Source: Burkholderia plantarii (GTDB lineage Bacteria > Pseudomonadota > Gammaproteobacteria > Burkholderiales > Burkholderiaceae). Taken from it: a stretch of DNA of 64,000 nt. The stretch lies in assembly GCF_001411805.1 (NCBI RefSeq), contig NZ_CP007213.1:3100001-3164000 (forward strand). Direction: 5' to 3'. A program made the translations under genes and the position numbers. The notes beneath the pieces were generated by a model, which worked only from the letters and a program-made list of their open reading frames with translations, did no database searches and was not told the origin of the DNA. Of this stretch, positions 17,663-34,933 are shown in pieces. The first letter of the stretch is position 1; every line of letters begins with the position of its first letter.

Positions 17663-17863
17663 CGTCACGAGGGGCAGGAGCGGGCGCCCATGGTATCACC
17701 GGGTCGCGCGCCGCCCGCCCGGGGGCCGCTGAACCCGCGAACGGCGCGGCGGACCGCGGGAAAACGCGCCGCGCGGGCATCGGCGAAGCCTGGCGGCGCG
17801 GCGTGACGCGCGGCGTTTCTGCTACATTGCGTCGAGCCCGGCCGGCCGTGGCGGCGCCGCCAG

Positions 17864-17944
17864 TTATCCCCGCTTTTTGTTGGCAAGCTTGTGGATATCC
17901 TGCGCACCGGCGCGCCAAGCCCCTGATGCAAAACGGTTTCCCGG
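17864..17944 (+). repeat. DnaA-box-pair repeat, copy 1 (degenerate left box)
   Basis: This is the isolated seventh member of the repeat family found at 26.0-27.9 kb. The left 9-mer is TTATCCCCG (17864-17872), then 17 bp containing TGTTGGCAAGCT, then TGTGGATAT (17890-17898). The third block starts at 17917 as AAGCCCCTGATG. Spacing is identical to the other copies although the left box and third block have diverged. It lies between the divergent RpiR and hydrolase genes. Confidence 0.8.
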
Positions 17945-26034: not shown

Positions 26035-26115
26035 TTATCCACAGAAAATGTTGGCAAGCTTGTGGATGACTTGCGCATGCCTTCCATAAGCCATTGATCA
26101 AACGCGTCTTTTTCT
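26035..26115 (+). repeat. DnaA-box-pair repeat, copy 2
   Basis: TTATCCACA (26035-26043), a perfect consensus DnaA box, is followed by a 17-bp spacer with TGTTGGCAAGCT, then TGTGGATGA (26061-26069) and AAGCCATTGATC (26088-26099), ending in a T-rich tail. It lies in the convergent gap 25941-26729 between the oxidoreductase and VOC genes, which holds four copies and nothing else recognisable. Confidence 0.9.
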
Positions 26116-26166
26116 CGGCGAGCACGAATCGGTCACGGTTGTTGCGAGCGCGGCCCGATGCCGTGC

Positions 26167-26247
26167 TTGTCCACAGTTTTTGTTGGCAAGTTTGTGGATA
26201 TCTTCAGCGTGACTTCGCCAACCGTTTGATTCGATTGACCTATTTTT
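26167..26247 (+). repeat. DnaA-box-pair repeat, copy 3
   Basis: TTGTCCACA (26167-26175), then 17 bp with TTTTTGTTGGCAAGTT, then TGTGGATAT (26193-26201), and AACCGTTTGATT at 26220-26231 followed by TATTTTTT. Copy 3 starts 132 bp after copy 2. Its third block is the most diverged of the cluster. Confidence 0.88.
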
Positions 26248-26486
26248 TACGACACCGGTATTCGGCAGGCTCTCCGGGCGCCTGCCCACATGGCGGACAT
26301 CGCACCCACGGCACCAAAAAGCCGTTTCGGATCAACGCCCGCATGGGCAGTTAGTTGTCTTTGCAACCATTGTCGGCAGGCGGTTTCGGCCACCGCCGCT
26401 GCACGCCGCGCCGGTGCAATGGCGCCTTCCACCCCGCGCGAAGCGCCGCCGCCGGGCCGCTCCGGCCCGCGAGCCAGGCGCCCATG

Positions 26487-26567
26487 TTGTCCACATTTTT
26501 TGTTGGCAAGCTTGTGGACATCCTGAGGCCATTCACCTCAAGCCATTGATCTTCCGAGGTTTCTTCG
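26487..26567 (+). repeat. DnaA-box-pair repeat, copy 4
   Basis: TTGTCCACA (26487-26495), 17 bp with TTTTTTGTTGGCAAGC, TGTGGACAT (26513-26521) and AAGCCATTGATC (26540-26551). Here both arms carry G/C instead of the usual A/T at the matching position, so the arms remain complementary. It starts 320 bp after copy 3. Confidence 0.9.
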
Positions 26568-26616
26568 GGTGGGTCACGAAAGCGTCACCGCCGCCGGGCA
26601 CGCCGTCGGCCGCCTG

Positions 26617-26697
26617 TTGTCCACAATTTCTGTTGGCAACTTTGTGGATTTCCTGCGCATCCGCGCCGCAAGGCATTGATCGGGCACGGTTTATTGC
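26617..26697 (+). repeat. DnaA-box-pair repeat, copy 5
   Basis: TTGTCCACA (26617-26625), 17 bp with TGTTGGCAACTT, TGTGGATTT (26643-26651) and AAGGCATTGATC (26670-26681). It begins 130 bp after copy 4, nearly the same step as between copies 2 and 3, and ends about 30 bp before the VOC gene stop. Confidence 0.88.
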
Positions 26698-26729
26698 CGG
26701 GCACCACGGATGCGGCAGCCGGGCGGCGT

Positions 26730-27212
26730 TCAGCGTGCCGGCGGCGCGTCGCGCATGCATTGCGCCATCCCCTCGCGCACCTGCTCGGGCGTGAGATCGC
26801 GCAGGTGCGTGGCCACCGACCAGCGATGGCCGAACGGATCCTCGAGCTGGCCGTAGCGGTCGCCCCAGAACATCTCGGCGACGGGCATCGTCAGCGTCGC
26901 GCCGGCCGCGATGGCACGCGCCATCACCGCGTCGGCATCCTCCACGTACAAGTGCAGCATCACGGGCGAGCCGTTCGGCGTGCGCGGGCCGGCCACGCCG
27001 CAGCCGGCGATCTCGTCGGCCAGCATCAGCGTCGAATCGCCGATGCGGATCGACGCGTGCATCAGCTTGCCGTCGGGGCCGGGCAGCCGGCTCGTCTCGA
27101 CCGCGCCGAACGCATCGCGGTAGAACGCGATCGCCGCGGCGGCGCCGTTGCAGATCAGGTGCGGGGTGAGGCTGTGCATGCCTTCGGGAATCGGTTTGAC
27201 GGCGGCGGACAT
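26730..27212 (-). CDS. VOC-superfamily protein (PhnB/glyoxalase-like)
   Basis: The 160-residue protein is a single vicinal-oxygen-chelate domain of the PhnB-like group: LTPHLICNGAAAAIAFYRDA, SIRIGDSTLMLADE, VMLHLYVEDADAVMARAIAA and MFWGDRYGQLEDPFGHRWSV. The final His/Glu positions fit metal ligands, but the reaction is unknown. ATG 27212 follows AAGGAG. The frame upstream to 27479 is compositional. The gene is embedded in the repeat cluster, with four copies behind it and two ahead. Confidence 0.88.
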   Translation of the reverse strand: MSAAVKPIPEGMHSLTPHLICNGAAAAIAFYRDAFGAVETSRLPGPDGKLMHASIRIGDSTLMLADEIAGCGVAGPRTPNGSPVMLHLYVEDADAVMARAIAAGATLTMPVAEMFWGDRYGQLEDPFGHRWSVATHLRDLTPEQVREGMAQCMRDAPPAR

Positions 27213-27487
27213 GATGTCGGCTCCTTGGCGCGAATGAATCGTCGGTGACGGAGGACGGGCAAAAGCACCGGCACGACACCCCGGCGGCGCGCTCGCCCGA
27301 TACCACGACGCGCGGGCCCGTCCGAAATCGACACGGCCAGCGAAAAAACCTCGCGCGCCGGCGCGCGTCGACGCCACGAGGCGGGATGACCCGATGGAGG
27401 ATGGCACCGCGGCCGGGTACCGGTATCGGCGGTCGGTCTTGACAATCGGTATCGGGTACCGATCTCGATGGCGCGGCAAAGGTAAAG

Positions 27488-27568
27488 TTATCCACAGTTT
27501 TTGTTGGCAAACCTGTGGATATCAGCGAGCCCGCATCGCCAAGCCATTGATCGGAAGAGGATTTTTTT
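27488..27568 (+). repeat. DnaA-box-pair repeat, copy 6 (best conserved)
   Basis: TTATCCACA (27488-27496), a perfect DnaA box, 17 bp with TTTTTGTTGGCAAACC, TGTGGATAT (27514-27522) and AAGCCATTGATC (27541-27552), then GATTTTTTT. It lies in the 725-bp gap 27213-27937 upstream of the VOC gene, which holds this copy, copy 7 and otherwise no gene. Confidence 0.92.
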
Positions 27569-27818
27569 CGACCCTGTCGGAACGCTCACGACTTCGTCAC
27601 GAAATGGCCCGGATCGGGGGCCGCGCGGAGCCCGGCGCGACGGCGGCAGGGGCTTGCGTACACGCCTCGCCGGGCAGCCGCCGGCGGGCACCAAGCCACG
27701 ACCTGCACGGCTTTTCGGCGGACCGCCGACGGCCGCGAGGCCGGCGTCGGCTGGCGGCCGGCACCCGGCCGAGCGTCGAAAAAAAGCGACCGGCGCGAAA
27801 ATCGCACCGGTCGCCGGG

Positions 27819-27899
27819 TTGTCAACAGATGATGTGCGCAAGCGTGTGGATATCAGCCGGATCGCCAGCCCAAGCCGTTGATCCGACAGGTCTTTCCGT
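27819..27899 (+). repeat. DnaA-box-pair repeat, copy 7
   Basis: TTGTCAACA (27819-27827), 17 bp with a diverged GATGTGCGCAAGC core, TGTGGATAT (27845-27853) and AAGCCGTTGATC (27872-27883). It starts 331 bp after copy 6 and about 40 bp before the stop of the 88-residue protein gene. Confidence 0.85.
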
Positions 27900-27937
27900 T
27901 CGCGCCTCACGGACGGGCAGCGGCCTGCGCCGCCGGT

Positions 27938-28204
27938 TCAGTGCCGGTCGAGCGAGGACATCAGTTCGTCGGCCTTGGCGCGCAGCGCCTCGTAGCCCGA
28001 ACGCGCATGCTCGGGCAGGTCCGGGTCGCCGATCAGCGTGCCGAGCGTCTCGATCAGGCTGAACGCGAGCCCCTTGGCCGCGCCCGTCGCGATCGACTGC
28101 GAGGCGACCGACGCATGCAGGTGGTCGATCGCCGCTTCCATCTGTTCGAGCTGCGCGTCGCGGTCAAGCGGGCGGCCTTCGTCGGGCCGGGTTTCCTGGG
28201 TCAT
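27938..28204 (-). CDS. Hypothetical protein, 88 residues, helical
   Basis: ATG 28204 follows AAGGAGATGGCACC, a strong ribosome site. The protein begins MTQETRPDEGRPLDRDAQLE and is predicted to be mostly helical (LEQMEAAIDHLHASVASQSI, GLAFSLIETLGTLIGDPDLP, ARSGYEALRAKADELMSSLD), with no signal peptide. No family is recognised. It lies 182 bp downstream of the glucosidase on the same strand. A much longer open frame continues upstream through the next genes but is a shadow. Confidence 0.65.
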   Translation of the reverse strand: MTQETRPDEGRPLDRDAQLEQMEAAIDHLHASVASQSIATGAAKGLAFSLIETLGTLIGDPDLPEHARSGYEALRAKADELMSSLDRH

Positions 28205-28386
28205 GGTGCCATCTCCTTGAACTGAACGATGCGCCGCCGGACGCGGCGCGCTCCATCGATTCGACCACGCGGTGCCCGCGTGATTCCCGCGCGGGCCGGG
28301 CGGGCGGGCGGCCGGACCGGACGCGGCGGCTGGCCACGGCCCGTTCCACTTGCTCGACCGCTCCCGCCGCCCGCCGGGCCGCCTGC

Positions 28387-30654
28387 CTACAGCGCCGCCA
28401 CCACCTTCACGCGCCCGTTGCCCTGCGCGGCCGCCACCACCTGGCCGCCGACCCGGCGGAACGTCAGCGAGACCGTTTCGTCGCCCACGCGCAACCCGTC
28501 GAGATCGAGCCAGGCGATCCCCTCGGGCAGCGCCGGGCGCTCGATGCGCACCTCGCCGCGCGCGGCGTCGACGCTCACGCCGAGACAGGCCTGCAGCATC
28601 ATGAACGGCGAGCCGGCCGCCCAGGCCTGCGGCAAGCAGGCGACCGGATAGGCCGTGGGCGGCTCGCCGCGCCGGCGCGGGAAGCCGCAGAACAGCTCGG
28701 GCAGGCGCATGTCGAAGCTGACCGCCGCCTCGAACAGCGCGCGCAGCAGCTCGGTGGCGGCCGTCTTGTTGCCGTAGCGCGCGAAGCCGCGCGCGGCCAG
28801 CGCGTTGTCGTGCGGCCAGACCGAGCCGTTGTGGTAGGCCATCGGGTTGAAGCGCGGCTGGCCGGCCGCGAGCGTGCGAACGCCCCAGCCGGTGCGGAAC
28901 AGCGACGAGTCCAGCGTGGCCGCCACGGCCTCGCCGCGGCTCGCCTCGGGCAGCCCGAACGCGAGCAGGTGCCCCGCGTTCGACGCCAGCACACGGCACA
29001 GCTCGCCGCGTCCGTCCAGCGCGATCCCGTAGAAATTCGCCTCCGGCATCCAGTAGTGCGTCTCCACCGCCTCGCGCAGCTTCCGGGCGCGCGCCGCGTA
29101 GCCGGCGGCCCGTTCCGCGTCGCCGCGATGCGTGGAGAACGTCGCCATCGCGTCGAACGCCGCGCAAGCGTAGGCCTGCACCTCCACCAGCGCGATCGGC
29201 CCTTCCGGAAAGCGGCCGTCGGCGTGGAACACCGAATCGTGGCTGTCCTTCCAGCCCTGGTTCGCGAGGCCGCGCTCGGAGGTCTTCTGATAGTCGAGCA
29301 GGCCGAGCGGATTGCGGTCGCAGGCGCGCGCGACCCAGTCGGCGGCGCGCTCGAGCGCGGGCCACAGTTCGTCGATCAGCGCCGCGTCGCCGGTCTGCTC
29401 CAGGTAGGCGCCCGCCAGCACCACGAACAGCGGCGTGGTGTCGACGCCGCCGTAATAGAGCGCGAACGGCACCTCGCCGGTGGCCGCCATCTCGCTGCGG
29501 CGGAACTCGTGCATGATCTTGCCCGGCTCGGCGTCGCGGAATGCCGACGCCTCGCGCGCCTGGTGCTCCGCGAGGAAGCGCAGCACGCCGCGTGCGAGCG
29601 ACGGCTGCAGCCACAGCATCTGCAGCGAGGTGATCACCGCGTCGCGGCCGAACGGCGTGGAGAACCACGGAATGCCGGCATACGGATACGGCCCCGTCTC
29701 GAGCTGGGTGGTCAGCAGGCCGAGATCGGCGAGCGAACGCTCCAGCCAGGCGTTGAACAGCGGGTTGCTGGTGCGCACGCGCGCGGTCATGCGGCGCCGT
29801 TCGCGCATCTTGCGGTGGACCTGCACCAGCGCGCGGCGCAGGCCGGGCCGGCCCGCCTCCGCGAGCGGCTGCGACGGCTCGGCCGGCTCGCCGTCGCGCT
29901 CGATGCGCGCCTCCACCGTCAGGTAGATCGACACGCAGGCCTGCGCGGCGATCGTCTGCGTATAGTCGGCGCGCTCGGTATCGAGCCGCACCGGCGCCGG
30001 CGAGAAGCCGATCCGCACCGTGCGCGCGACGCCGTCGAGGCCGTCGTAGCGCAGCCGCACCTGGCCCGCATCGACGTGCGGCGCCGCCACCTCGCCGCGT
30101 CGCTCGCGCGGCGTGCCGCGCACCTCGAACATGTCGAGGAAATCGGCGGCGAACGAGATCGACAGCGGCACCTCGGCGTCGGTCGTGCCGTAGTTGGTCA
30201 GCGTCAGCGCCTCGTAGAGCACGTTGTCGGAAAGCACGCGCATCCGCTCGATGTGGATCATGCCTTCCGGCATCTCGTGGCCGCCGAGCGGCGGCAGCGG
30301 CCGGTTGGTCAGATGCGCGGTGAACGAGGCGTTGTCGGCGCTGGTCGCGCCCGACAGCAGCGACGGCGCGCGGCCGCCGAACGTGAGGCGCCAGCCCGAC
30401 AGCACGCGCATGTCGTCGACGAACAGGCCGTCGTCGTGACCGGAGATGTCGCCGAGCGCGTCGCTGACGACGAACGCGTCGCCCGACTTCAGCACGTGCT
30501 GGCTGCCGCGCACGGGTTTCTGCGAGCCGGGTTCGGGGGCGATGAAGGGGGGCGCCGCGGCGCCCGCGGGCGGCGCCACCGGCGGCGCGGAGGAGGTGGC
30601 GGCAACAGCCTGCGCGGCCGTCGAGGAAGCGTGATCTGCTGGAATACCGGGCAT
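28387..30654 (-). CDS. Amylo-alpha-1,6-glucosidase-type glycogen debranching protein
   Basis: The 755-residue protein has the N-terminal beta domain of bacterial debranching enzymes (SGDAFVVSDALGDISGHDDG, RVLSGWRLTFGG, residues about 60-300) and a C-terminal (alpha/alpha)6 catalytic domain (TGPYPYAGIPWFSTPFGRDA, WKDSHDSVFHADG, YHNGSVWPHDNALAARGFAR). The GRDA and WPHDN segments carry typical acidic residues. It probably trims alpha-1,6 branches of glycogen or a related polymer in the cytoplasm; no glgA/B/C genes are near. ATG 30654 follows CAGGAG. The first 50 residues are a Pro/Ala-rich tail. Confidence 0.87.
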   Translation of the reverse strand: MPGIPADHASSTAAQAVAATSSAPPVAPPAGAAAPPFIAPEPGSQKPVRGSQHVLKSGDAFVVSDALGDISGHDDGLFVDDMRVLSGWRLTFGGRAPSLLSGATSADNASFTAHLTNRPLPPLGGHEMPEGMIHIERMRVLSDNVLYEALTLTNYGTTDAEVPLSISFAADFLDMFEVRGTPRERRGEVAAPHVDAGQVRLRYDGLDGVARTVRIGFSPAPVRLDTERADYTQTIAAQACVSIYLTVEARIERDGEPAEPSQPLAEAGRPGLRRALVQVHRKMRERRRMTARVRTSNPLFNAWLERSLADLGLLTTQLETGPYPYAGIPWFSTPFGRDAVITSLQMLWLQPSLARGVLRFLAEHQAREASAFRDAEPGKIMHEFRRSEMAATGEVPFALYYGGVDTTPLFVVLAGAYLEQTGDAALIDELWPALERAADWVARACDRNPLGLLDYQKTSERGLANQGWKDSHDSVFHADGRFPEGPIALVEVQAYACAAFDAMATFSTHRGDAERAAGYAARARKLREAVETHYWMPEANFYGIALDGRGELCRVLASNAGHLLAFGLPEASRGEAVAATLDSSLFRTGWGVRTLAAGQPRFNPMAYHNGSVWPHDNALAARGFARYGNKTAATELLRALFEAAVSFDMRLPELFCGFPRRRGEPPTAYPVACLPQAWAAGSPFMMLQACLGVSVDAARGEVRIERPALPEGIAWLDLDGLRVGDETVSLTFRRVGGQVVAAAQGNGRVKVVAAL

Positions 30655-30966
30655 TGCGACTCCTGACTGCGGTCCACGGGAAAGGGGCGGCGAACCGGTC
30701 TCTGCTCGCACCCCGATTCGCCACAGGATAGGCCAGAATGTGCCCGCCACGCAGCGTCGCGAATCCGGCGCGGTGGACGGCAGGACGCGCCGCCGCCCGC
30801 GGGCGGGCGTCAGGGAACGGGCCGTGGATGATGGGGAGCCAGCCGGTGGCGGCCCGGATCGCGCGCGGGTAGCGGTGGATGGGCGCCCGCTCCGGCAACC
30901 GCCCGCCGTGCCGGGCCGGCGTCGCGCCGGCCAGCCGGACGGCGGGACAAAACGAGATAACGACCG
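30655..30966. other. 312-bp gap between the glucosidase and the MreB paralogue
   Basis: GC-rich sequence with no supported gene. It contains the promoter or leader of the glucosidase gene. Whether the two minus-strand genes are cotranscribed cannot be told. Confidence 0.3.
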
Positions 30967-32001
30967 TCAGTGATCGACGTCGGCCTCCAGCCGGCCCATC
31001 GCCTCGCCGGCACCGCGCACGGCGCAGCTCAACGGCTCGTCGGCGACACGCACCGCGAGGCCCGTCTCGTCGAACAGGCGCCGGTCGAGATGAGCAAGCA
31101 GCGCGCCGCCGCCCGTCAGCACGATGCCGCGATGCGCGATATCGGTCACGAGTTCGGGCGGCGCCTTCTCGAGCGCGGCCTTGACCGTGGTGATGACCTG
31201 GTTCAGCGGCGCCGCGAGCGCCTCGGCCACGTCGTGGTTCGACAGCTCGATGGTGCGCGGCAGGCCGTCCTCGACGCCACGCCCGACCGCGCGCATCGAT
31301 TCGCGCGGCACCGAGCGGCAGGCCGAGCCGATCTGCTTCTTGACGTGCTCGGCGGTCTGCTCGCCGAGCAGCACGTTGTAGAGGCCGCGCACGTGGTTGA
31401 TGATGGCCGCGTCGAACTGGTCGCCGCCGACCCGCACCGACTGCTGGTAGACCACGCCGCCGAGCGACACGACGCCGACCTCGGTGGTGCCGCCGCCGAT
31501 GTCCACCACCATCGAGCCGACCGCCTCGGTGACAGGCAGCCCCGCGCCGAGCGCGGCCGCGAGCGACTGGTCGATCAGGCTCACGCGCGAGGCGCCGGCC
31601 GCCATGGCGGCCTCGCGCAGCGCGCGCCGCTCGACGGCGGTGGCGCTCGACGGCACACACATGGTGAACGCGATGCGCCGCCCGAACAGCGAGCGCGCGT
31701 GCGACATGCCGACGAACTGGCGGATCATCTGCTCGGCCGCCGGATAATGCGCGATCACGCCGTGCCGCAGCGGGCGCACCGCCTCGAGATGCTCGGGCAC
31801 GCGCCCGAGCAGCGCCTTGGCCAGTTCGCCGACCGCCTCGACCCGCGCCTTTTCGGCATGCGCGCCCGATTTGCGGAAGCAGACCACCGATGGCTGGTTC
31901 AGCACCACGCCGCGTTCCTGCGTGTAAATAAGCGTGCTCGCGGTGCCCGGATCGACCGCGACGTCGTTCGAGAAAAGCCTGCCCAGCATGGGTGTCGACA
32001 T
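30967..32001 (-). CDS. MreB-like actin-family rod-shape protein (paralogue)
   Basis: The 344-residue protein has the actin-fold motifs of MreB: phosphate-1 VAVDPGTASTLIYTQERGVV, phosphate-2 SMVVDIGGGTTEVGVVSLGG and the adenosine loop RGIVLTGGGALLAHL, plus EQMIRQFVGMSHARSLFGRR. The canonical DLGTAN of phosphate-1 is DPGTAS here. MreC, MreD, PBP2 and RodA are not adjacent, so this is a stand-alone paralogue rather than the main mre locus. ATG 32001 is preferred to the longer frame because it begins at the conserved MLGRLFSNDVAVD. Its role in cell shape is inferred from the family. Confidence 0.85.
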   Translation of the reverse strand: MSTPMLGRLFSNDVAVDPGTASTLIYTQERGVVLNQPSVVCFRKSGAHAEKARVEAVGELAKALLGRVPEHLEAVRPLRHGVIAHYPAAEQMIRQFVGMSHARSLFGRRIAFTMCVPSSATAVERRALREAAMAAGASRVSLIDQSLAAALGAGLPVTEAVGSMVVDIGGGTTEVGVVSLGGVVYQQSVRVGGDQFDAAIINHVRGLYNVLLGEQTAEHVKKQIGSACRSVPRESMRAVGRGVEDGLPRTIELSNHDVAEALAAPLNQVITTVKAALEKAPPELVTDIAHRGIVLTGGGALLAHLDRRLFDETGLAVRVADEPLSCAVRGAGEAMGRLEADVDH

Positions 32002-32317
32002 TGTGTGCCCCGACGAACTGACCGACGAATACGCGCGAACCCGGCCCGATCCGGCATTTCCCCGCGCCGGTACCGCTCGCTCGTTGCCCGCTCGCGCGCG
32101 CATCGATGATGATGCGCCGTCGACCGGAAGTTTCTACTGTAGGTAATTCCGGGTCAATGGAGAATATTCCGATGTCCAATTGACAATTTGACGGAAAAGT
32201 CGGGACTCCCTGACATCGACCGCATGAATTGACGGCGGGCGCAAAGTCTGTACTCTTTCGGCTGGGGCCGCGCATTCACCGCCGCGCAACCACGCCATAC
32301 CGATATCAACAGTAGAA
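32002..32317. other. 316-bp divergent promoter region
   Basis: The region lies between the MreB paralogue and the patatin gene, which are divergent. It is moderately AT-rich, especially 32140-32215 (AATTGACAATTTGACGG), and must carry both promoters. No repeat or RNA gene is seen. Confidence 0.4.
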
Positions 32318-34933
32318 ATGCGCCTCATCGCCTCCTCCGCCTCGCACCGCGAATCGTCCGCCGACCGCCTCGCTGCGCGCGCGCCGCTGCCGGCTGCCGG
32401 GCCTGAATCCGTCTCCTCCCGCGATGGCCGCCATGGCCCGCTTGCCGCGCAGGTCGTGCGCCTCGCGTTCGCCGCGCTCGGCTGGGCCTGCTGCGCGCTG
32501 CCCGCCACGGCGCGGGCCGAAGCGGTGAACGGGCCGGCCGCGCAGGCCGCCTTGGCGGCACCGGGCGCACCGACCAACCCGACGGCCTGGGCCGCGGCGC
32601 TCGCGGCGATGCAGGCGCAGCGCAATGCAAACGGAGAAAACGCTGCCGCGCCGGCAATGGCAGCAGAAGCCCCGGCGGCGGCCCCCTCGACGACCGTATC
32701 GCCCTCAACCACCGCCCCCACCGACGACAGCGCCCCCACCCACGCCTGCGTCGCGAACGGCGGCCCGCCGGGCCGGCCGTCGATCGGCCTGGTGTTGTCA
32801 GGCGGCGGCGCGCGCGGCTACGCGCATTTGGGTGTCCTGAAGGTGCTGGAAACGCATCGCATCCCGGTCGACTGCATCGCGGCCACCAGCATGGGCGCCG
32901 TGGTCGGCGGCCTCTACGCGAGCGGGATGGGCGCCGACGAGATGGCGCGGCGGCTCTCCGGGGTGAACCTCACCGACATCGCGTTCGACGTCGTCGATCG
33001 CGCGGACCTGCCCCAGAAGCGCCGCGAGGACGAGGAGCACTACATCGGCGGCCTGACGGTGGGCTTCGGCCCGAACGGCTTCAAGGCGCCGGCCGGGCTG
33101 ATCCAGGGCAACCGGCTGCAGGCGCTGCTGGCCGACTGGACCGCAGCGGTGCCCGTCAACCAGTCGTTCGACAAGCTGCCGGTGCCGTTCCGCGCGGTCG
33201 CCACCGACCTCGGCAACGGCCACATGGTGGTGCTCGACCACGGCTCGCTGCCGCTCGCGATCCGCGCCAGCATGGCGCTGCCGGGCCTGTTCTCGCCCAC
33301 CGAGATCGCGGGCCGCACGCTGGTGGACGGCGGCCTCGTCAGCAACCTGCCGGTCAGCACCGCGCGCCGGATGGGCGCCGACCTGGTGATCGCCGTGGAC
33401 ATCGGCTCGCAATTGCGCCCGCTCGATTCGCTCGCCTCGGCGGCCGACGTGATCCAGCAGATGCTCGGCATCCTGATCCGCCAGAACGTCGCGCAGCAGC
33501 ACGCGCAGCTGCACCGCGGCGACGTGCTGCTCGAACCCGATCTCGGCTCGCTGTCGTTCATCGATTTCCAGAACGCCCAGCAGGCGATCAAGGCCGGCGA
33601 GGCGGCGGCCAACGCCGCGCTGCCGCAACTCGAACGCTACGCGCTGTCGCCGGCCGACTACGCGGCCTACCGCGCCGCGCACGCGCGCGCGCCGGCGCCG
33701 CCGGTGCGGCTCGCCGAAATCGAGATCCGCGCGGGCGGCCCGGTGCCCAAGCGCGTGGTGGCCGACGCGCTGCACGTGAAGCCCGGCGACATCTACGATC
33801 CGCAGGCCATCAACCGCGACCTGCTCGCGCTGTCGACCAGCGGCAACTTCGATTCGGTCACGCAGCAGGTGATCACCGACGGCAACCGCAACACGCTGCT
33901 GATCGACGCGCGCGAGAAGAACTGGGGGCCGAACTTCCTGCTGTTCGGGCTCGGCATGTCGAGCAGCTCCAGCGACGAGGGCGGCTTCCGCTTCCACGTC
34001 GGCTACCGGCGGCCCTGGCTGACCGAATCGGGGCTCGAATTCCGCGCCGACACCACGCTCGGCAGCGACCTGCAGGCGCTGCGCACCGAGCTGCGCCAGC
34101 CGCTGTCGAGCCGCTACGGCTTCTATCTCGCGCCCTACGCGGAACTGGAGCGGCGCTTCGCGAACGTCTACTACGACGACTACAAGCTCACCCAGTACCG
34201 GCTGCAGACGCAGCGGCTCGGCCTCGACCTGGGCCTGCCGATCGCGCGGCTCGGCGACTTCCGGGTGGGCCTCGCCTACGCGCACGGCAGCGCCTCGGCC
34301 ACCTACAACCTGCCGCTCGACACCACGCCCGACGGCCGGCCGATCGGCGAGGCGTTCCAGCCCTACAACGGCCACGAGCTCACCGCGCGCGCGCGGCTGC
34401 TGATCGACCAGCTCGACGATCCGATGCTGCCGCGCCGCGGCTATTACCTGGAGATGCGCGTCGACCGCTCGATCGTCGCGAGCGAGCGCACGCGCTATAC
34501 CGAGCTGTTCGGCAAGGCGATGATCGCGCAGGAGTTCGGCCGGCACAGCCTCAGCGCGAGCATCGAGGGCGGCAAGAGCCTCGGCGGCGTGAGCCCGGTG
34601 AACCTGCTCGCGTTCACGCTGGGCGGCTTCCAGCACCTGTCGGCCTACGCGGCCGACCAGCTGAGCGGCGACGCGCTCGCCTACGGCCAGCTCACCTACA
34701 TGAACCGGCTGATGACGTTCAACGCGTCGCCGATCAAGGCGTTCTACGTGGGTGCGAGCGCCGAGGTCGGCAACGTCTGGAGCGCCGACGACTCGATCAG
34801 CAGCGGGCCGCTCAAGCAGAGCTACTCGCTGTTCGCGAGCTTCGCCACCTCGTTCGGGCCGATCTACGTGGGCGTCGCACTGGCGCCGGGCGGCGTGCGC
34901 AACCTGTATTTCCAGCTCGGCCGGACTTATTGA
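32318..34933 (+). CDS. Patatin-like phospholipase fused to an outer-membrane barrel (PlpD-type, type Vd)
   Basis: The 871-residue protein has an N-terminal export region (residues 1-130, with a hydrophobic stretch VRLAFAALGWACCALPATARA), a patatin domain (about 145-400), a POTRA-like domain (about 465-535, RLAEIEIRAGGPVPKRVVAD) and a C-terminal Omp85-type barrel ending FQLGRTY. The patatin oxyanion loop is LVLSGGGARGYAHLG, the nucleophile is the Ser of IAATSMGAVVGGL and the dyad Asp is in LVDGGLVSNLP. The elbow reads A-T-S-M-G rather than G-T-S-M-G. It is probably a surface or secreted lipase of the type Vd secretion class. Confidence 0.9.
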   Translation: MRLIASSASHRESSADRLAARAPLPAAGPESVSSRDGRHGPLAAQVVRLAFAALGWACCALPATARAEAVNGPAAQAALAAPGAPTNPTAWAAALAAMQAQRNANGENAAAPAMAAEAPAAAPSTTVSPSTTAPTDDSAPTHACVANGGPPGRPSIGLVLSGGGARGYAHLGVLKVLETHRIPVDCIAATSMGAVVGGLYASGMGADEMARRLSGVNLTDIAFDVVDRADLPQKRREDEEHYIGGLTVGFGPNGFKAPAGLIQGNRLQALLADWTAAVPVNQSFDKLPVPFRAVATDLGNGHMVVLDHGSLPLAIRASMALPGLFSPTEIAGRTLVDGGLVSNLPVSTARRMGADLVIAVDIGSQLRPLDSLASAADVIQQMLGILIRQNVAQQHAQLHRGDVLLEPDLGSLSFIDFQNAQQAIKAGEAAANAALPQLERYALSPADYAAYRAAHARAPAPPVRLAEIEIRAGGPVPKRVVADALHVKPGDIYDPQAINRDLLALSTSGNFDSVTQQVITDGNRNTLLIDAREKNWGPNFLLFGLGMSSSSSDEGGFRFHVGYRRPWLTESGLEFRADTTLGSDLQALRTELRQPLSSRYGFYLAPYAELERRFANVYYDDYKLTQYRLQTQRLGLDLGLPIARLGDFRVGLAYAHGSASATYNLPLDTTPDGRPIGEAFQPYNGHELTARARLLIDQLDDPMLPRRGYYLEMRVDRSIVASERTRYTELFGKAMIAQEFGRHSLSASIEGGKSLGGVSPVNLLAFTLGGFQHLSAYAADQLSGDALAYGQLTYMNRLMTFNASPIKAFYVGASAEVGNVWSADDSISSGPLKQSYSLFASFATSFGPIYVGVALAPGGVRNLYFQLGRTY

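Follow-up and report, generated by a model that had tools for sequence, protein, structure and literature searches.

Why would the second chromosome of Burkholderia plantarii carry, far from its replication genes, a run of compact DnaA-box groups that all share one layout? The question is raised by a stretch of 64,000 nucleotides, hereafter the window (assembly GCF_001411805.1, contig NZ_CP007213.1, positions 3,100,001 to 3,164,000 of the forward strand), in which six units of 80 bp lie at 26,035-27,898, all on the + strand. The assembly consists of three contigs: C1 (4.14 Mb, with dnaA at its start; chromosome 1), C2 (3.74 Mb, which holds the window; chromosome 2) and C3 (197 kb). An earlier note made from the window's letters had named as candidates a datA-like titration locus, a DnaA-reactivating sequence (DARS), an origin relic and a mobile repeat family. 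Our analysis favours the DARS-type candidate, through a predicted third DnaA box in each unit and through the box geometry of the Escherichia coli DARS cores, and we propose that the locus is probably a multi-copy, IHF-coupled DnaA-reactivation array.

Architecture of the units

One layout is common to all six window units: three DnaA boxes, with box I forward and, at offsets of +14 and +26 bp, boxes II and III in reverse, followed by an IHF-type site. A further unit lies 8 kb upstream.

Unit 1, 26035..26114, + strand: boxes I 26035-26043 (+), II 26049-26057 (-) and III 26061-26069 (-); IHF-type site 26087-26099; T-rich tail
Unit 2, 26167..26246, + strand: boxes at 26167 (+), 26181 (-) and 26193 (-); IHF-type site 26219-26231, reading CAACCGTTTGATT, the full consensus YAANNNNTTGATW
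Unit 3, 26487..26566, + strand: boxes at 26487 (+), 26501 (-) and 26513 (-); IHF-type site 26539-26551
Unit 4, 26617..26696, + strand: boxes at 26617 (+), 26631 (-) and 26643 (-); IHF-type site 26669-26681
Unit 5, 27488..27567, + strand: boxes at 27488 (+), 27502 (-) and 27514 (-); IHF-type site 27540-27552
Unit 6, 27819..27898, + strand: boxes at 27819 (+), 27833 (-, TGTGCGCAA) and 27845 (-); IHF-type site 27871-27883
Unit 7, outlier, 17864..17943, + strand: boxes at 17864 (+, TTATCCCCG), 17878 (-) and 17890 (-); degenerate IHF-type site 17916-17928; profile match at 17862-17942 with an expect value (E) of 3e-15

The six starts and the common orientation given in the earlier note are correct, and its six units are real, but the seventh had been overlooked. 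The arrangement TTRTCCACA-N17-TGTGGAYAT, which all six were said to share, is exact in three of them (against none in 100 dinucleotide shuffles), whereas the other three deviate: 26035 ends in TGTGGATGA, 26617 ends in TGTGGATTT, and 27819 has TTGTCAACA as box I and TGTGCGCAA as its core. Similarly, AAGCCATTGATC does begin 27 bp past the start of the right-hand box in five of six units (≤1 mismatch), while unit 26167 has AACCGTTTGATT in its place. Searching with the three-box geometry at ≤3 mismatches returned 5 window sites versus 0 in 10 simulations. The description of every copy as intergenic holds for units 1-5, which have zero overlap with open reading frames (ORFs) passing the codon-bias filter, but unit 6 overlaps the start of a kept ORF (27878-28225, +; family untested) by about 20 bp. 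When units from the window and 20 relatives were aligned for consensus and dyad (best 150 of 169 matches), the consensus read TTNTCCACA-N5-TGTTGGCAA-N3-TGTGGATAT-N17-YAANNNNTTGAT-N-T tract.

The two facing boxes had been recognized correctly, but the core between them, TGTTGGCAA, is by its letters a third, reversed DnaA box. Its mean mismatch to reversed TTDTNCACA is 1.81 at offset 14, versus 4.1-7.0 at 14 other offsets, and 27 of 88 distinct units have a box II with ≤1 mismatch (112 of 116 rows were kept at box I + III mismatches ≤3, query chromosome 1 sites included). With the register set on box I alone, in 81 distinct non-Burkholderia units with ≤1 mismatch in box I and the chromosome 1 pair described below dropped, the best two of 122 offset and orientation combinations were 26(-), at 0.74, and 14(-), at 1.84; these are likewise the two best offsets of E. 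coli DARS1 and DARS2. Outside Burkholderia the middle core reads TGTTGGCAA, TGTTCACAA, TGTTTGCAA, TGTGAACAA, TGTGGATAA and others, and the TGTGGATAA of one relative (L198) is the sequence of DARS1 box II. DARS1 and DARS2 have identical spacing, with box I opposed to boxes II and III (PMC5742627), and the head-to-head arrangement of boxes I and II is described as characteristic of DARS and essential for it (PMC10380432). With three predicted boxes in which I faces II and III at DARS1/DARS2 spacing, the units appear to have the composition of a DARS core.

Past the boxes, the motif YAANNNNTTGA lies exactly 17 bp beyond box III in 154 of 163 units of strict geometry (at 18 bp in 1 and absent from 8), and its four N positions and the spacer are much more variable than the positions of the consensus. 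An A or T run about 10 bp away strengthens IHF sites. The AAGCCATTGATC motif with its T-rich tail fits a putative IHF site, YAANNNNTTGATW, at a fixed distance, a match that the earlier note had not recognized. The IHF consensus is given as TAAnnnnTTGATW (PMC8682772), and WATCAANNNNTTR appears as its complement form (PMC4585315). By consensus, then, a candidate IHF site stands beside the core as in the DARS2 subtype, though at a distance unlike that of DARS2.

Resemblance to the DARS cores of E. coli

In E. coli K-12, the DARS1 core, between bioD and uvrB, reads TTATCCACT-N5-TGTGGATAA-N3-TGTGTATTA, and the DARS2 core, upstream of mutH, reads TTATTCACC-N5-TGTGGATAG-N3-TGTGAAGAA, both with offsets of 14 and 26. 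Two IHF-like sites, 3 bp apart, lie 58 bp past the DARS2 core, and the published separation of the DARS2 IHF-binding sites IBS1 and IBS2 is also 3 bp (PMC4245941). We take L073:636 to be the likely published DARS2 core from its position, its layout of boxes and these two IHF-like sites; L073:952 is a look-alike.

In 11.4 kb of E. coli DNA, a profile built from Burkholderiales units only, with no E. coli sequence (R3), returned 31 matches, of which the best was the DARS2 core (E 0.0018) and the next best the DARS1 core (E 0.0038), both with the right strand and register, suggesting that within this stretch the units resemble the known DARS cores. The three-box geometry (≤3 mismatches) occurs once in the DARS1 stretch and once in the DARS2 stretch, with 0 occurrences in the datA stretch (L074) and 0 in 30 simulated sets. 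The sole datA candidate with a good box II has 6 mismatches.

A single conserved locus on chromosome 2

The exact pattern TTRTCCACA-N17-TGTGGAYAT occurs in the 8.08-Mb genome at three places only, all of them in the cluster, and not in the hundreds of evenly scattered copies that, according to the earlier note, would, if DnaA did not bind them, mark an ordinary dispersed repeat. A six-unit profile returned 10 genome matches at E≤1, namely the seven units, a pair in inverted orientation on chromosome 1 and, close to the start/end of chromosome 2, a single weak partial match. All 41 Burkholderia genomes gave 6-13 matches each in one search. In 21 loci (the window and 20 of 40 relatives, picked mainly for few contigs, with a search expression written after seeing units), we counted the 163 units of strict geometry, which lie on one strand per locus and of which 158 overlap a kept ORF by <20 bp. 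The array stands in the same relative direction beside one gene, a glycosidase gene (F0), in 21 of 21 loci; with only 10 genome matches, the locus does not behave as a dispersed mobile repeat.

For 120 of 163 units the most similar unit is one of the same rank in another genome, a count favoured by the close relatedness of some genomes; it is one of another rank in 40 and a unit of the same genome in 3. Because the nearest unit is mostly the same-rank unit of another genome, the array is apparently for the most part ancient and kept in its place rather than newly copied. The query species is more divergent, and its ranks have no clear match (best identities 0.71-0.77). Beyond the genus, an earlier, Burkholderia-centred profile (R2) had matches in 130 of the 200 family genomes searched (13 of 25 genera), and R3 in 114 of 200 at the level of the order (70 of 109 genera); many of these genomes have just one or two sites. 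Arrays amplified at a single locus are found in those Burkholderia loci that were read, and other genomes have smaller ones, such as six units in 860 bp in G397.

Chromosome 2 starts with ParA, ParB and a Rep-like gene (C2:101-3747; weak family match only), 620 kb from the array, which bears out the view that this DnaA-box locus lies away from the main origin and makes an origin relic unlikely. No initiator or partition family was found among 10 window proteins scanned with Pfam (2 of the 10 without any family), and the array is not a replication origin with adjacent initiator or partition genes. The array was placed in 17 near-complete Burkholderia genomes (the query plus 16 relatives with chromosome 2 length and rep position; G020, with array and rep on different contigs, G110, G171 and drafts were left out). 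In every one of them it is 0.54-0.91 Mb away from the rep gene of chromosome 2, at 0.33-0.64 of the arm, with its units oriented against the replication fork. The same direction was found for 16 of 16 clusters or strong sites in 8 single-contig relatives of other genera and families, at 0.35-0.71 of the arm and in other gene neighbourhoods, where the split between cluster or strong sites and weak single sites was made after seeing the matches (G136, G223, G280 and G319 had matches and were not placed). Synteny between the arrays of single-contig relatives and the Burkholderia locus was considered and set aside, as protein identities of 28-31% (two queries against the ORFs of the 21 loci) were judged non-orthologous.

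Neighbouring genes and further sites

The genes between units differ among the 21 loci, and two neighbours in the window are listed here.

26730..27212, - strand: glyoxalase-family gene, between units 4 and 5; array-adjacent in 4 of 21 loci including the window, with other genes in this place elsewhere
28387..30750, - strand: F0, glycogen-debranching-type glycosidase (GDE_N_bis / MGH1-like GH); a landmark outside the mechanism

Many relatives, but not the window, have a class A beta-lactamase (F5, 14 of 21 loci) and a LysR regulator (F4, 15 of 21) inside the array (L053:11133-13062 and equivalents), so that the array brackets a replaceable gene slot. Further along the window, a gene of the MreB/Mbl family (30967-32103, -; Pfam 4.9e-119; F13) is possibly a second copy besides a chromosome 1 mreB, and a patatin-like phospholipase is fused to an Omp85-type barrel (32318-34933, +; F14); each is near the array in 7 of 21 loci.

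Elsewhere in the genome, the chromosome 1 pair (L018:1337-1585; G000:C1:2721104-2721352) consists of two facing units with the 9-5-9-3-9 layout, IHF-like sites and TGTTGAA in box II. It has blastn relatives in 8 of 18 Burkholderia genomes, query included, and is apparently conserved only partly, or has diverged. The partial match at L019:1501-1537 (G000:C2:3742412-3742448) is a compact DnaA-box-like group some 1.2 kb short of the end of C2, beside the rep/par start. Three diverging TTRTCCACA pairs lie 134-181 bp apart within 50 kb of dnaA (G000:C1 10076/10210, 44866/45047 and 47974/48141) and are possible parts of oriC1, whose exact place in B. cenocepacia is given as uncertain (PMC4948915). 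In four genomes of genus g11 (G183, G170, G190 and G201), presumably Pandoraea, a second same-direction unit pair lies on the same arm, about 87-108 kb from the main cluster, and one weak single site has the fork direction, on the other arm in 3 of the 4.

Proposed function and competing explanations

We propose that every one of the 80-bp units acts as a compact control site of DARS type for DnaA and IHF. ADP-DnaA would bind boxes I-III, the DnaA molecules on boxes I and II would meet head to head via their AAA+ domains, and IHF would bend the DNA and aid complex formation, whereupon ADP would be released and apo-DnaA would reload with ATP. Placed partway along a chromosome 2 arm, an array whose dose would rise as chromosome 2 replicates could supply more ATP-DnaA for the following round of initiation at the chromosome 1 oriC. 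The analysis itself shows the sequence and geometry of the units, their conservation, and their orientation and position; DnaA binding, IHF binding, the direction of the nucleotide reaction (ADP-to-ATP exchange) and the effect on oriC are what we infer from the letters. The Hda gene is present at C1:716,009, with a match above the cut-off, so a predicted Hda partner of the opposite, inactivating arm exists in the query genome.

Several observations weigh against this proposal; structurally, the chief concern is how weak the middle box is in Burkholderia. Box II is degenerate in Burkholderia proper, with TGTTGGCAA in 151 of 163 units, and the resulting strong-weak-strong order differs from E. 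coli, where the best match of DARS1 is box II. The E. coli matches are significant only for 11.4 kb, and scaled to 4.64 Mb their E would be about 1; with R2, in 10.4 kb, the DARS1 core ranked first with E 0.096 and the DARS2 core 14th of 25 with E 3.4, both in register. The DARS2 IHF sites are paired and 58 bp from the core, whereas the unit has a single IHF-type site at 17 bp, and DARS2 needs Fis-binding sites (FBS2-3). The query genome has the lowest place on the arm (0.33), 6 of 8 weaker single sites in the single-contig relatives point with the fork, E. coli DARS1 does so too on the E. coli map, and the chromosome 1 pair faces itself. Because weak single sites, DARS1 and the chromosome 1 pair break the rule, direction is a property of arrays and not a law for every site. 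Finally, the clustering of units suits titration too.

Sequence alone cannot decide the nucleotide direction, and datA-like hydrolysis and titration are the main rivals. As a datA-like locus, the array would have DnaA and IHF form loops between neighbouring units and promote DnaA ATP hydrolysis (datA-dependent DnaA-ATP hydrolysis, DDAH), turning initiation off. datA is likewise a DnaA-box cluster with an IHF site of matching consensus, and each IHF-type site of the array has the boxes of its unit on one side and those of the following unit on the other, with unit-to-unit steps of 124-230 bp in 92 of 142 cases. The steps overall range from 124 to 4887 bp, and datA is an IHF site flanked by the essential DnaA boxes 2, 3 and 7 with set spacing. 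The absence of the three-box geometry from datA (≤3 mismatches), set against its single occurrence in each DARS stretch, and the place of datA near oriC (PMC10380432), as opposed to mid-arm on chromosome 2, make us regard this explanation as unlikely. Plain titration, in which high-affinity boxes would soak up DnaA by number and leave its nucleotide unchanged, draws on the 37 TTRTCCACA sites of the genome (30 for a reversed-pattern control), of which 5 lie within these 1.5 kb, and on reports of DnaA titration on the E. coli chromosome (PMC12371093). However, titration needs no fixed 14/26/17 bp geometry, weak middle box, IHF site or common direction, all of which are conserved, and we think it rather improbable.

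The array could also serve chromosome 2 itself, as a crtS-like trigger, an accessory origin or a Rep-protein binding site. It shares one replicon with the chromosome 2 rep gene in 17 of 17 placed genomes, and a crtS-like link between chromosomes has been called worth exploring (PMC4948915). Nevertheless, related arrays lie on the only contig, together with dnaA, in single-contig relatives, the c2 iteron given in PMC4948915 is by eye unlike the unit, and the array stands 0.54-0.91 Mb from the rep gene, so a role of this kind has little probability. Least probable of all, and very improbable, is a family of mobile or structured-RNA repeats that plays no part in replication. The units are multi-copy and intergenic, with an almost invariant dyad, but the 10 genome matches fall mostly in one conserved locus and the units are mostly orthologous between species, matching the same-rank unit elsewhere, so the mobile family of the earlier note was abandoned. 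The RNA-structure reading was likewise rejected, since Rfam gave no hit at E≤1 across 25.0-29.0 kb of the window or at the gathering score in three related loci; in register the dyad shows 94% pairing with one double change, which gives no real covariation support either way.

If the locus is a DARS-type array, a wider role is possible, although we advance it as speculation: the main DnaA-recharging station of Burkholderia would be the chromosome 2 DARS array, its doubling as chromosome 2 replicates past mid-arm would time the next chromosome 1 initiation, and the unit would be a self-contained, perhaps Fis-independent DARS module across Burkholderiales. For the coordination of replication in multi-chromosome Burkholderia, a conserved chromosome 2 array is a concrete, deletable candidate; our analysis suggests that chromosome 2 carries a switch helping to time DNA replication. 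The notion of DARS would widen from single E. coli loci to a module that is portable and amplified, and an alignment of so many natural units is a ready means of asking which positions of the DnaA head-to-head complex matter. Among the open-licence papers listed by our searches, we found no account of this array or of DARS sites in Burkholderia. What is new is a multi-copy, compact form with an IHF-type site at 17 bp on a second chromosome; DARS outside E. coli is not itself new, because DARS1- and DARS2-like sequences are reported generally in many proteobacteria (PMC10380432).

Comparison with known systems

Among known systems, the DARS2 core (NC_000913 near 2969135) has the same boxes as the units, I (+), II (-) and III (-) at 0/14/26, with IHF sites in its regulatory part, and the DARS2 spacing is described as shared by beta- or gamma-proteobacteria proximal to E. 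coli (PMC5742627). DARS2, on the E. coli arm map, and the array are both mid-arm with the core oriented against the fork. Unlike the array, DARS2 is present in one copy, on the main chromosome, and its box II is nearer the consensus. The DARS1 core (NC_000913 near 813107, bioD-uvrB) shares the three-box geometry and an R3 match in register, whereas it is a single copy with a perfect TTATCCACA as box II; no IHF consensus at ≤1 mismatch was found in the 901 bp scanned around it. Positional effects are known for both E. coli sites (PMC10380432).

datA resembles the array in being intergenic and in having, besides its DnaA boxes, an IHF site that follows the same consensus, but it is without the DARS-core geometry, its IHF site lies between boxes, and it is near oriC. 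The crtS site of Vibrio cholerae is a functional analogue, if the chromosome 2-to-1 reading holds, as a short site linking the replication of two chromosomes. It differs in its place on chromosome 1, in being a binding site of RctB and in triggering chromosome 2 (PMC6090056), while the array lies on chromosome 2 and has DnaA boxes; the link proposed here, if true, would run from chromosome 2 to chromosome 1, in the direction opposite to that of crtS.

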